This document shows, piece by piece, positions 37,662-41,441 of a stretch of DNA of 64,000 nt. Under the pieces are notes generated by a model. That model saw only the letters and a list, made by a program, of their open reading frames with translations. It was not told where the DNA came from and did no database searches. The translations under genes and the position numbers were made by a program. Origin of the DNA: Alcanivorax sp. 24. Lineage in GTDB: Bacteria > Pseudomonadota > Gammaproteobacteria > Pseudomonadales > Alcanivoracaceae. Position 1 is the first letter of the stretch, and every line of letters begins with the position of its first letter. The stretch covers positions 434,001 to 498,000 of the forward strand of contig NZ_SNUA01000002.1 in NCBI RefSeq assembly GCF_004360225.1. The letters are read 5' to 3'.

Positions 37662-37909
37662 TGCGTGTTATTTTTTTGGTGTAAAAAATGGGACCGCGAG
37701 GTCAAGTCTTGCCTCTTGTGCTTTGGTGGATAGGTCAGCTAGATAGCTAACTAGACCACAAAGAGTTGATCCCCTCCTCACACAAAGAAAACCCCAGCGA
37801 ATGGTCGGGAGGGTATGTTTCCAATCCCGCACTTGGGAGGCTGGGCTGGAAATCGGATCGGGACGCTAGGAGCCCTTTTTGTGCATATCTCACACGAAGT
37901 TGAAAGGAC

Positions 37910-38118
37910 TTAAACCCGCTCAATCACCGTAGCAATCTCCTAACCCAAGCCAATGCCCGTGGTCGCCAAGCCGAGTTGGACATCTTTCCACTGCATGGTG
38001 CTCAGCAGCGGACATCGATATACGGAGCGAGCATCGGAACAGTCCAGAGGGTACCCAAGGCGATGGTGCCGTCGTCTACAGATTCAGTTTTTCTTCCACA
38101 CGGTTCAGCAGCTTTCGG
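37910..38118 (-). pseudogene. Decayed duplicate of the fadA 3' end, copy 1
   Basis: The minus strand reads the last codons of FadA (ATVIERV then TAA). The first 28 bases are identical to the true fadA end at 40266-40293. Upstream it diverges: the codon for Gln in IGLGQG is TAG, and the catalytic Cys of the MCIGLG motif is Gly. Similarity fades by about 38118. It cannot encode a thiolase. Confidence 0.8.
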
Positions 38119-38192
38119 CCTTCGGGTCCGGAGTGGATATCTGATAATGGCTATTGGCTCCTTGGATTCGATAGCTGTGTTCACTTGCAGTG

Positions 38193-38231
38193 ATTTCATT
38201 GCATGAAATTCTAAGACTAAAGCATGAAATT
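38193..38231. promoter_or_regulatory. Palindrome and direct repeat upstream of the ImmA-type gene
   Basis: ATTTCATTGCATGAAAT (38193-38209) is a perfect 7-3-7 palindrome. Its right half GCATGAAATT recurs at 38222-38231, exactly 21 bp downstream. It looks like a repressor operator for the metallopeptidase gene, yet no repressor gene is adjacent. Confidence 0.5.
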
Positions 38232-38314
38232 GTCTTTGATGGATTGACCATCTTTTGATCTGAATGTACATATGTAGTGGTGTTGGCGTAGAAAAATACT
38301 AAATATGGTGCTTT

Positions 38315-39013
38315 ATGGATCCGGCGATTAAACAGTACATTGGACTTCAGGCCAGGCAACTTCATGGGCAAATATGGTCACAGAGGGAGAGGTTGTTTCC
38401 TAATGGCGACTGGACGCCAACTCAGCTTTGTGACCCGCGTATTGCTTGTGAGGTCCTAGATATTAGCTACGAGGAGCTTCCCTACATTGACTCAAGGTTC
38501 GCACGAGCTGATGAAGGTAAGGTGCTTGCTGGTCTTATCGATCGCCAGGCAGGGCGAATTGTCGTTAGTGACGCTCTGCCTGATCCGGTTATGAGATTTA
38601 CTGCAGCCCATGAAGTCGGACATTGGTGTCTTCACCCTGGACACATTTTACATCGGGATATGCCTGTTAGTGGGTCAGATGTGCCTTCTCTGCGATCGGA
38701 AATTGAACAGCAGGCAGATTATTTTGCGGCATGTTTCTTGATGCCGAAAAAATCTATCATTAAGGCTTTTCAGAATAGGTTCAGAGTGCAGTTGCCATTG
38801 CATTTTACTGATGTCCTAGCTTATTGGCTGTCCCCTAATGATGCAGATTCATTAATATCTGCTCCTCAGAGTTCCTTGGCAAGGGAAAAAGCTTTGGCTC
38901 AGTGCACAGGCCTTACCAGTCAACGATTTCAATCTTTAGCAGATGAATTTAAAGTTTCAGTTGGAGCAATGGCCCTCCGTATTCGTGAGTTGGGCCTTGT
39001 CAGTTGGCCATGA
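38315..39013 (+). CDS. ImmA/IrrE-family metallo-endopeptidase
   Basis: A 232-residue zinc peptidase-like protein. The HExxH motif is AAHEVGHWCLH (about residues 96-106). The third ligand region EQQADYFAACFLMP follows, as in ImmA/IrrE/DUF955 proteins that cleave XRE-type repressors. A helical C-terminal part (about 160-232) completes it. ImmA proteins usually sit next to their repressor, but no helix-turn-helix gene adjoins here. The DNA is AT-rich relative to the chromosome. It is bracketed by two decayed fadA 3'-end copies, which suggests it arrived as separate cargo. Confidence 0.88.
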   Translation: MDPAIKQYIGLQARQLHGQIWSQRERLFPNGDWTPTQLCDPRIACEVLDISYEELPYIDSRFARADEGKVLAGLIDRQAGRIVVSDALPDPVMRFTAAHEVGHWCLHPGHILHRDMPVSGSDVPSLRSEIEQQADYFAACFLMPKKSIIKAFQNRFRVQLPLHFTDVLAYWLSPNDADSLISAPQSSLAREKALAQCTGLTSQRFQSLADEFKVSVGAMALRIRELGLVSWP

Positions 39014-39502
39014 ATGAGCGTTTGAGAACGATGGATAGGAATTAGCCCTTGCCTTTCATCCCATTCGGGACAGGTCTTGACTCTTTTGCCTTGATGACTA
39101 GGCGGCAAAGAACTGATGCCTCCGATGCAAAGAAAACCCCGGCGGATGGCCGGAGTTTTTTTGATTTTCAGTCCCATCCTTGGGAGGTGGAGCTGGAGAT
39201 CGGATCGAGGCGCTAGACGCCCTTTTGGGGGAGGCGTATCCACACGAAATAAAGGACTCAAACCCTCTCAATCACAATAGCGATCCCCTTACCCAACCCA
39301 ATACACATAGTCGCCAGGCCGAGCTCGCCGTCTTTCCATTCCATGACGTTGAGCAGGGTGCCTCTGTTGGTAGTCGGAGCGGGCACCGGAGCAACCCAGA
39401 AGGTGGCCGAGGGCAAAGCCTTCGTTGAGTTCAACGTAGTCGATGTTGTCCATGGTCAGGCCGGTGCGGGCCTAGCCGCGAAGGAAGCAGACTAATGATC
39501 GT
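39014..39502. other. Intergenic region with second decayed fadA 3'-end unit
   Basis: About 490 bp. From about 39065 it parallels 37690-38118: a clearer terminator (AAAACCCCGGCGGATGGCCGGAGTTTTTTT, 39133-39162), a shared spacer (TTGGGAGG, then GATCGGATCG) and the fadA 3' fragment at 39258-39475. No gene. Confidence 0.7.
39258..39475 (-). pseudogene. Decayed duplicate of the fadA 3' end, copy 2
   Basis: The minus strand encodes an intact variant of the FadA C-terminus ([20 protein letters not shown] then TGA), with a 35-base exact match to fadA (39328-39362 versus 40336-40370). Further in it contains GCSGAR, then an abrupt join to VELNE, skipping about 95 bases of fadA. The sequence is a divergent allele rather than a recent copy. 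It is a fragment with no start. Confidence 0.85.
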
Positions 39503-39796: not shown

Positions 39797-40053
39797 CAGG
39801 TATTGATGTCTTCAAACAGGCGGTCGAGTCCGGCCTTGCTGTCAACATGGATGCCTTGGCCCTGGTTCAATTGCAGGATGCCTTCTTGAAGCTGTTCGCG
39901 TAGTCGAGCCAGTTTGAGTTCGTTGACCCATTCCTCGTGGGTTTCCACGAACCGCAGGGCTTCCCGGACCACCTCACTGGCGTTGTTGTATAGGCCGCTG
40001 TCCACTTTGGCTTTGATACGGGCTTCGAGTTCGGGGGTTAGTGAGACGTGCAT
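39796..40053 (-). CDS. parD: ParD-family antitoxin
   Basis: An 85-residue antitoxin. The N-terminal ribbon-helix-helix (MHVSLTPELEARIKAKVDSG, SEVVREALRFVE) is followed by an acidic C-terminal tail that wraps ParE (LREQLQEGILQLNQG...). The start at 40053 is supported by CAGGAGAGT and by homologues beginning at this Met. A 42-residue upstream extension is non-homologous. It is coupled to parE. A 19-bp perfect palindrome at 40101-40119 upstream is the likely autoregulatory operator. Confidence 0.9.
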   Translation of the reverse strand: MHVSLTPELEARIKAKVDSGLYNNASEVVREALRFVETHEEWVNELKLARLREQLQEGILQLNQGQGIHVDSKAGLDRLFEDINT

Positions 40054-40100
40054 GCCCACTCTCCTGAGGGTGAGGGTATCGTTAGATACTAGTCCTGCTA

Positions 40101-40119
40101 CATAGATTGTCAATCTATG
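40101..40119. promoter_or_regulatory. ParD operator palindrome
   Basis: CATAGATTG-T-CAATCTATG is a perfect 9-1-9 palindrome, 48 bp upstream of the parD ATG. Ribbon-helix-helix antitoxins bind such sites to repress their own operon. Confidence 0.65.
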
Positions 40120-40202
40120 GATTGCCTGATGTGGCGATCTATTTGAAGGGCTCCGTGCGGTTGGAAGTCTTTGACCCATGCTACATAGAGGTTGAGACGA
40201 AA

Positions 40203-40235
40203 AAAGCCCCAGCGGTAAACCCGCTGGGGCTTTTG
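40203..40235 (-). terminator. Intrinsic terminator of fadBA
   Basis: Stem AAAAGCCCCAGCGG/CCGCTGGGGCTTTT with loop TAAAC, followed on the minus strand by a six-T run. It lies 31 bp after the fadA stop. Degraded relatives of it accompany both fadA 3' fragments in the island. Confidence 0.9.
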
Positions 40236-40265
40236 GGCTCTTGGCAACGGTGTAAGAGAGGGCGA

Positions 40266-41441
40266 TTAAACCCGCTCAATCACCGTAGCAATCCCCTGAC
40301 CCAAGCCAATGCACATGGTCGCCAGGCCAAGCTGGCCGTCTTTCCATTCCATGACGTTGAGCAGGGTGCCGGTGATGCGGGCACCGGAGCAGCCCAGGGG
40401 GTGGCCCAGGGCGATGGCGCCGCCGTTGAGGTTGACCTTCTCTTCGACTTTGTCGATCAGTTTCAGGTCCTTCAGCACTGGCAGGGATTGCGCGGCGAAG
40501 GCTTCGTTGAGTTCGACGTAGTCGATGTCGTCGATGGTCAGGCCGGCGCGGGCCAGGGCTTTCTGGGTGGCCGGTACCGGGCCGTAGCCCATGATGGCGG
40601 CGTCGCAGCCGGCCACGGCCATGCTGCGGATTTTGGCGCGCGGTTTCAGGCCCATGGCCTGGGCTTGTTCGGCGCTCATCACCAGCATGGCGGAGGCGCC
40701 GTCGGACAGTGCCGAGGAGGTGCCGGCGGTGACGGTGCCGCTGACCGGGTCGAACACCGGGCGCAGTTTGGCCATGTCCTCGATGCTGGCGCCGGGGCGG
40801 ATCACTTCGTCGATTTCGCACAGCACTTTGTGGCCGTCGGCGTCGTGGCCTTCGATCGGCACGATTTCGTTTTTCCAGCGGCCTTGTTCGGTGGCTTCCC
40901 AGGCTTTCTGGTGGGAGCGCACGCCGAACTCGTCCTGCTGTTCACGGGTGATGCCGTGCATGCGGCCGAGCATTTCCGCGGTCAGGCCCATCATGTTGGA
41001 GGCCTTGGCGGTGACCTTGGACAATTCCGGGTTCAGATCGATGCCGTGGTCCATGGCGACGTGGCCCATGTGCTCCACGCCGCCGATCACGAACACCTCG
41101 CCGTTGCCGGTCTGGATCGCCTGGGCCGCGGAGTGCAGCGCCTGCATGGAGGAGCCGCACAGGCGGTTCACGGTTTGCGCCGCGGTGGTGCGGGGCAGGC
41201 CGGCCAGCATGGCGATGTTGCGGGCGATGTTCATGCCCTGTTCCTTGGTCTGGTTCACACAGCCCCAGATCACGTCCTCGGTTTTGCTCAGGTCCCAGCC
41301 CGGGTTACGGGCTTGCAGCGCTTCCACCAGCAGGGCGGACAGCTTTTCCGCGCGAACGTTGCGGTACTGGCCGTTTCTGCTTTTCCCCATGGGGGTACGG
41401 ACAGCGTCGACAATGACTACGTCTTTCGGATTCAAACTCAT
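40266..41441 (-). CDS. fadA: 3-ketoacyl-CoA thiolase (beta-oxidation complex beta subunit)
   Basis: Thiolase of 391 residues. It cleaves 3-ketoacyl-CoA to acetyl-CoA and a shortened acyl-CoA in the FadBA complex. The active-site Cys is in [10 protein letters not shown], the His in [12 protein letters not shown], and the second Cys in [10 protein letters not shown]. The length equals Pseudomonas FadA. It follows fadB by 24 bp, so it is an operon. Its 3' end is duplicated twice in decayed form downstream (37910-38118 and 39258-39475), making it the apparent boundary of the accessory island. Confidence 0.96.

Follow-up and report, generated by a model that had tools for sequence, protein, structure and literature searches.

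Why should the 3′ end of a core metabolic gene occur three times in succession, with unrelated genes lodged between the copies? The question is raised by a locus in the marine oil degrader Alcanivorax sp. 24 (assembly GCF_004360225.1, contig NZ_SNUA01000002.1, positions 434,001 to 498,000), a stretch of 64,000 nucleotides, hereinafter the window, that carries fadA, a gene of fatty-acid breakdown that encodes 3-ketoacyl-CoA thiolase. From fadA onward, the order is the toxin-antitoxin pair ParDE, a displaced fadA end (copy 2), ImmA, a second displaced end (copy 3), a 206-aa open reading frame (ORF), a NERD-UvrD helicase, a PDC-M05-like gene pair and AbiEi/AbiEii. We consider it probable that the fadA 3′ end, together with its terminator, serves as an integrase-free landing place where defence and toxin-antitoxin cargo accretes by recombination that is homologous within fadA on one side and illegitimate on the other. 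The features on which this argument is built are the following (UTR, untranslated region; negative fadA positions count back from the end of the gene):

40266..41441, minus strand: intact fadA (Pfam Thiolase_N/C; 99% protein identity in G006-G008)
40187..40265, minus strand: B-type fadA 3′ UTR with a terminator-like hairpin (92.5% to G008; partial matches elsewhere in the genus)
39796..40179, minus strand: ParD antitoxin, the cargo adjoining intact fadA (PF03693)
39503..39796, minus strand: ParE toxin (PF05016)
39258..39472, minus strand: displaced fadA 3′ end, copy 2, fadA -289..0 with an internal deletion (alignment to fadA; first part also in G008)
39118..39257, minus strand: A-type 3′ UTR and terminator of copy 2 (homologous to the native fadA 3′ UTR in genus g8, Alcanivorax; terminator also in G006/G007)
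38315..39013, plus strand: ImmA/IrrE-type M78 peptidase, cargo (PF06114)
37910..38131, minus strand: displaced fadA 3′ end, copy 3, fadA -216..0 with stops (alignment to fadA 3′ ends)
37766..37909, minus strand: A-type 3′ UTR and terminator of copy 3 (homology to the copy 2 UTR)

Alignment confirmed that the three fadA ends share one orientation, and Pfam searches returned the ParDE, ImmA (M78) and NERD-UvrD cargo that had been described from the sequence. The fadA-end family is the longest ungapped direct repeat reported in the window (110 nt, three copies). Copy 3 contains stop codons, as originally observed, and aligns with intact fadA over -161..0 at 78%, the match extending to -216 against the 3′ ends of relatives. 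Copy 2 aligns over -289..-228 at 90% and over -147..-2 at 83%. The initial annotation took copy 2 for an intact variant C-terminus of foreign origin. It is not intact: 81 nt are missing, there is a net 10-nt insertion, and the clean reading to TGA covers only about the last 34 codons. Nor is a foreign origin supported: by distance, copy 2 is nearest to the fadA genes of the window and of G008, and the tree places it with copy 3 (support 94) inside a node with G000, the window's own genome in the family comparisons, and G007 (96), a grouping that long branches make uncertain.

The similar terminator and spacer said to accompany each copy are common to copies 2 and 3, which are 73% alike over about 310 bp that take in the 3′ UTR and terminator, but do not extend to the native window fadA, which has a different 3′ UTR in common with G008. 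The A-type terminator of the displaced copies is also found behind intact fadA in the nearest relatives G006 and G007, which match the fadA 3′ UTR region of the window through the A-type only. Because the UTR of copies 2 and 3 resembles the native one of Alcanivorax (genus g8, assigned through named loci) and its terminator occurs in G006 and G007, the displaced ends look as if they carry the older 3′ UTR of the window's lineage. The closest named relatives by FadA are Alloalcanivorax balearicus and A. xenomutans (99% identity).

We searched 46 Alcanivoracaceae genomes for fadA and used the downstream region in 39 (all except G017, G018, G023, G047, G049, G057 and G058); two of the 39 loci, with little downstream DNA (G039, 255 bp; G050, 2.5 kb), could hardly show a fragment. 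A displaced fadA 3′ fragment was detected in nine loci at E 1e-5 (G000 and G041, with two each, and G008, G010, G020, G021, G040, G046 and G048), and all 11 fragments are oriented as fadA, with none reversed. Under a control rule applied to every ORF of 150 aa or more in these loci, with the fragment required to lie downstream, on the same strand, within 10 kb and outside ORFs, fadA scored in 8 of 39 cases and other ORFs in 4 of 400 (Fisher p 7.3e-7, an optimistic value because related genomes are not independent). Two of the four other scorers are, by position, the NERD helicases of G042 and G038, which face fadA from the opposite side. In a cruder control (108 loci, 1425 ORFs), a 3′ fragment outside ORFs was found for nine ORFs, four of them fadA, and the mirror case, a 5′ fragment upstream, for three, two of them antisense ORFs over fadA. 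Among 80 named loci, with the stop located in 72 and too little downstream DNA in two of these, same-strand fadA coding repeats were found in L053 (the same genome as G008), L056 (probably G010) and L096; L068 has a weak same-strand repeat (65%), perhaps from a thiolase paralogue, and L085 and L102 have terminator-only repeats. An order-wide survey of 390 genomes, in which two candidates were scored per genome, was not used for rates.

As a separate observation, 3′ ends of the NERD helicase are left behind too, at the border opposite fadA, in L189 (G042) and L181 (G038), and in G006, which has no gene for this helicase, a 147-nt match to its 3′ part persists (L031 5352-5498, in the orientation of fadA).

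The order of insertion can be read from three genomes that share one flank, region A. In G052, fadA directly precedes region A; in G040, a 224-aa ORF stands between the two (region A 93% to G052); and in G041, the order after fadA is a 1541-aa ORF, one fadA end and its terminator, the 224-aa ORF, another fadA end lacking its final 109 nt, and region A (89%). In this stepwise series, the youngest cargo therefore adjoins intact fadA, with older ends further back. In this one series, the arrangement is that expected of sequential displacement, in which an old 3′ module is kept behind the new one and the newest stands beside the anchor. Similarly, G046 (zeta toxin) and G044 (ParDE) carry differing cargo ahead of one common flank (95%), and both retain remnants of a terminator, G046 also of a displaced fadA end.

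As the proposed comparison of relatives reveals, both cargo and fragment number vary behind a constant core gene. FadA is 99% identical in G000, G006, G007 and G008, and the neighbours of fadA in this set are ParDE, zeta, the 206-aa ORF and a ParDE region with only ParD seen open. Homologues of ImmA occur in 4 of 46 genomes (100, 81, 47 and 36% identity), in each case 0.6-6.4 kb downstream of fadA, and the 224-aa ORF in two of 46, both times at fadA. The NERD helicase is present in 17 of 46 genomes, in 13 of them on the fadA contig at most 15 kb downstream, with two of the remainder near the end of another contig and two elsewhere. Zeta occurs in four of 46: two at fadA, one elsewhere and one beside an A-type terminator on a contig with no fadA match.

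In the cargo, Pfam and PADLOC scans, which took in part of the ORFs between fadA and the fragments, identified ParDE, the M78 peptidase, HipA with a helix-turn-helix partner, zeta toxin, NERD+UvrD, AbiE and PDC-M05. The cargo also includes a reverse transcriptase of a defence class in G008, a cyclase with NucC resembling CBASS (cyclic oligonucleotide-based antiphage signalling system) and a Phd/YefM antitoxin in G021, a CARF protein behind the displaced fragment in G020, AAA_21 with DUF4276 in L096, and an amidase domain in the 1541-aa ORF. The 224-aa and 206-aa ORFs and some others had no Pfam or PADLOC match, and one ORF of G008 is, judged by eye, presumably an IS256-type transposase. The description of fadA as an accretion hotspot is thus borne out: relatives repeatedly show displaced ends beside a cargo that varies and consists in large part of defence or toxin-antitoxin genes.

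The joints between cargo and displaced ends are scattered. In Alcanivoracaceae, the fragments start at fadA -289 (G000 and G008), -216, -134, -283, -154, -131, -180, -309, -248 and -251, and in Acinetobacter at -575, -220 and -98; the start differs in nearly every genome, and there is no fixed core site. These positions suggest that one joint forms without homology, at variable places in the gene. In G020, G021, L096, L195 and L196, the last three being the Acinetobacter cases, the repeats stop at the terminator. The initial annotation had seen no integrase, and our searches agree: within 100 kb of fadA on its contig, there was no tyrosine recombinase (PF00589) in 9 Alcanivoracaceae genomes and no serine recombinase (PF00239) in 10, with the reservation that some contigs are short (22 kb in G046) and that transposases were not searched for.

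Three genomes of the Acinetobacter group have the same layout as the Alcanivoracaceae. In A. colistiniresistens L096, fadA is followed by DUF4276 and AAA genes, about 45 codons of a bacterial PH-domain (bPH) gene, and a 575-nt fadA end with terminator (95%). The PH gene stands whole directly after fadA in L102, L104, L118 and L121, which indicates that the far joint of L096 lies inside it; in L085, it matches in two pieces. Inspected by eye, base by base, this one bPH/fadA joint at -575 has a few matching bases at most. In G513 and G428, fadA is followed by the whole PH gene and then by a fadA end of 220 or 98 nt with terminator; we assign these genomes to Acinetobacter because they match L096 at up to 97%. 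In the survey of this group, fadA matched in 133 of 139 genomes, and at least two (G513 and G428) had a nearby same-strand fragment, a lower bound given that five candidates were scored per genome. Elsewhere in the group, contig C6 of G420 has fadA 3′ ends at 2516873 and 2534194, 17 kb apart in opposite orientation, and contig C13 of G513 has, besides its displaced fragment, two matches that cover nearly all of the final 350 nt of fadA, at 2163608 and 3120212, about 1 Mb apart.

Are the intact and the displaced end of a locus two alleles that met, or a gene and its decaying local duplicate? We compared the codon positions of the differences between them for 14 fragments, under nulls of 1/3, 0.45 (a rough estimate) and 0.55 for the share of third positions. 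The null of 1/3 is too lenient because the intact copy collects silent changes as well; under it, 7 of the 14 fragments have p <0.05, and under 0.55, L096 alone. At 0.45, the third-position excess is significant for L096 (22/24, p 2e-6), G020 (26/40, p 0.009), L195 (16/23, p 0.015) and G048 (4/4, p 0.041), and it is absent in G021, G046, G040, G010 and G008. With 22 of 24 differences at third positions, both ends of L096 appear to have evolved as working genes before meeting, so that, as far as codon positions can tell, they are clearly two alleles brought together rather than a gene and its decaying duplicate. For G020 and L195, the same signature is moderate. The polarity could be tested in one case, L096: its nearest relative by the 5′ part of fadA, L104, agrees with the fragment at 17 sites and with the intact copy at 6, which makes the intact end look like the newcomer and the displaced one like the old resident. 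G020 and G013 form a mosaic pair, about 8% divergent up to about -290 and 22% beyond, and the G020 fragment starts at -283.

With scattered joints, no tyrosine or serine recombinase close to fadA in the Alcanivoracaceae searched, repeats that end at the terminator in five genomes and a two-allele signature in L096, the data fit homologous recombination in fadA combined with an illegitimate far joint. Incoming chromosomal DNA of a relative would bring a fadA 3′ end, a terminator and cargo, and would recombine by homology with the resident fadA, leaving the gene intact but with the end of the newcomer. On its opposite side, the incoming DNA would join illegitimately inside the resident fadA, some 100-600 bp ahead of the stop. 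This would push the former 3′ end of the resident gene downstream, together with its terminator and older cargo, and the displaced end would then decay. Over repeated rounds, an array would grow in which the latest cargo adjoins fadA. The DNA may arrive by natural transformation or in a comparable way, the process may depend on RecA, and copies 2 and 3 of the window may have arisen by the same displacement.

Several observations weigh against this interpretation. The two window copies do not pass the two-allele test at the null of 0.45 (13/23, p 0.18; 20/46, p 0.64), nor do 8 of the 12 other fragments, and the repeat of G048 runs past the terminator, to +261. The 17:6 split of L104 has a p of 0.035 with nine relatives looked at, and the replaced partner of the G020/G013 mosaic is not identifiable from the pair. 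In the 3′-end tree, which took 7 of the 11 fragments (the short or decayed G041_f1, G008_f, G046_f and G010_f were left out), four of the seven group with their own genome at ≥94, which means that close donors would be required; of the others, G048_f, by distance nearest to G048, joins G053 (61), G041_f2 joins G052 (44), and G040_f is on a long branch. Distance matrices along fadA have no clear drop at the 3′ end (0.59-0.79 in all windows along the gene, the two lowest near the end), and the divergence of the last window exceeds twice that of the remainder in 4 of 24 nearest-relative pairs, compared with 1-3 pairs for other windows. We thus looked for a general loss of congruence among trees at the 3′ end of fadA and did not find one; the one clear mosaic pair is G020/G013.

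The main rival is insertion of a circle, Campbell-type, in which cargo between two fadA ends is excised by homologous recombination and re-inserted elsewhere by a single crossover, making the illegitimate joint unnecessary after the first event. A fadA end and terminator on both sides of the cargo are just what a single crossover produces, the repeats that end at the terminator (the same five cases) fit as well, and the ImmA unit has fadA ends on both sides in G048 and in the window. If cargo travelled in this way, however, the fragment start should travel with it, and yet the ImmA unit is joined at -131 in G048 but near -216 in the window, and two starts, -98 and -220, are seen for the bPH unit; decay could account for part of these mismatches. 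On balance, we regard this route as rather unlikely. A local duplication of the fadA 3′ end, tandem or target-site, that then decayed while cargo entered independently would explain why four of the seven tree fragments group with their own genome and why 10 of 14 lack a significant third-position excess at the null of 0.45. It is rejected for L096, where 22/24 requires two selected alleles, and is less likely for G020 and L195, which point the same way more weakly; given, in addition, that the G041 series demands ordered insertions and that cargo is common to the same site across genera, we find it improbable as a general account.

Site-specific integration of small elements, in which an unseen recombinase would act on the 3′ end of fadA and a replacement end would restore the gene, is close to what was originally proposed. 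A restored gene, a displaced old end and repeated use of one region all agree with it, as does the finding that the break between G020 and G013, near -300, lies close to -283, where the fragment starts. What survives of the proposal is insertion that keeps the gene whole and leaves the old end behind; the classical form of integration does not, considering the range of starts from -98 to -575, the lack of tyrosine (9 genomes) or serine (10 genomes) recombinases near fadA, and units of merely one or two genes, so that we consider it very improbable. Returning to accretion by recombination within fadA, we tentatively suggest an extension that is possible but doubtful: the fadA ends might act as built-in homology arms, such that cargo between two ends spreads between strains and species by ordinary recombination, yielding a self-perpetuating defence array, integron-like without an integrase, both in Alcanivoracaceae and in Acinetobacter, with other genes perhaps serving as anchors likewise.

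Beyond copy 3, the window contains four further features of the cargo region:

37041..37661, plus strand: 206-aa ORF (no match in Pfam and PADLOC)
35143..37044, plus strand: NERD-UvrD helicase, cargo converging on fadA (PF08378/PF13361; PADLOC NERD+UvrD)
33826..34825, plus strand: two-gene module, nucleotidyltransferase and partner (PADLOC PDC-M05A/B match)
31807..33771, plus strand: AbiEi and AbiEii (Pfam/PADLOC)

Between abiEi and abiEii, at 32600-32840, there is a very stable double hairpin (-162 kcal/mol, z -13.4), which looks like a small mobile hairpin insertion; G008 aligns right across it, and in G006/G007 the flanks, which stop at 32586 and resume at 32854, meet directly and overlap by two bases. 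Palindromic repeats of the GCTGTGGGAAGCTTGCTTGCAAGCGAAT type, similar to repetitive extragenic palindromes (REP-like), occur at 2437, 9216, 14548, 27625, 29381, 52150-52218 and 53383-53527, and a pair of 71-nt direct repeats, 72% alike and 90 nt apart, at 3191-3351.

Neither integrase-less hotspots nor sequential displacement is new. Many hotspots of gene transfer are without an integrase gene, and the way in which core defence hotspots come about is left open in the relevant sections of PMC5635113 and PMC10250203. Arrays of the type VI secretion system are alike in that displacement is sequential at the 3′ region of a gene, with no evidence of an integrase in the account given there, and the authors suggested homology-facilitated illegitimate recombination and drew a parallel with integrons (PMC5361080). 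Those arrays, however, are described as anchored on a weapon cluster, with immunity genes retained, whereas fadA is a metabolic anchor kept intact, with unrelated defence and toxin-antitoxin cargo and decayed 3′ ends and terminators marking the steps. The orphan 3′ modules of Rhs and contact-dependent inhibition (CDI) systems, as presented in the same paper (PMC5361080), likewise consist of displaced 3′ regions, arranged in a row after a gene whose 5′ part is constant; unlike these, fadA is no toxin gene, and no function was seen for its displaced ends. The integrase-less hotspots of Oliveira 2017 (PMC5635113) resemble the fadA locus, by the description in that paper, in that the cargo next to a core gene varies, enzymes of mobile elements are absent and homologous recombination is the proposed driver; at fadA, in contrast, insertion adds cargo and leaves an ordered scar. 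The core defence hotspots of Pseudomonas aeruginosa (PMC10250203) also hold defence genes at a fixed core-gene landmark with no single mobilising element, but, in the text concerned, their flanks include a tRNA or tmRNA gene, mobile genes occur at many sites, and transfer by recombination is said to leave no mobile-element scars, whereas fadA has scars of its own. From an integron, the locus differs in having no PF00589 gene near fadA in 9 genomes (attC sites were not searched for).

Our literature searches on Alcanivorax genomic islands and on thiolase or fadA integration sites found no report of fadA as a hotspot, nor did we find a precedent for a housekeeping-gene anchor with terminator-bearing scars that record order. 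The displaced ends of this core metabolic gene provide an ordered, sequence-level record of insertions, which makes their order, their donor and their joint legible and open to testing. Looking for displaced 3′ ends in the core genes that flank a hotspot, combined with the codon-position test, is applicable to any hotspot.

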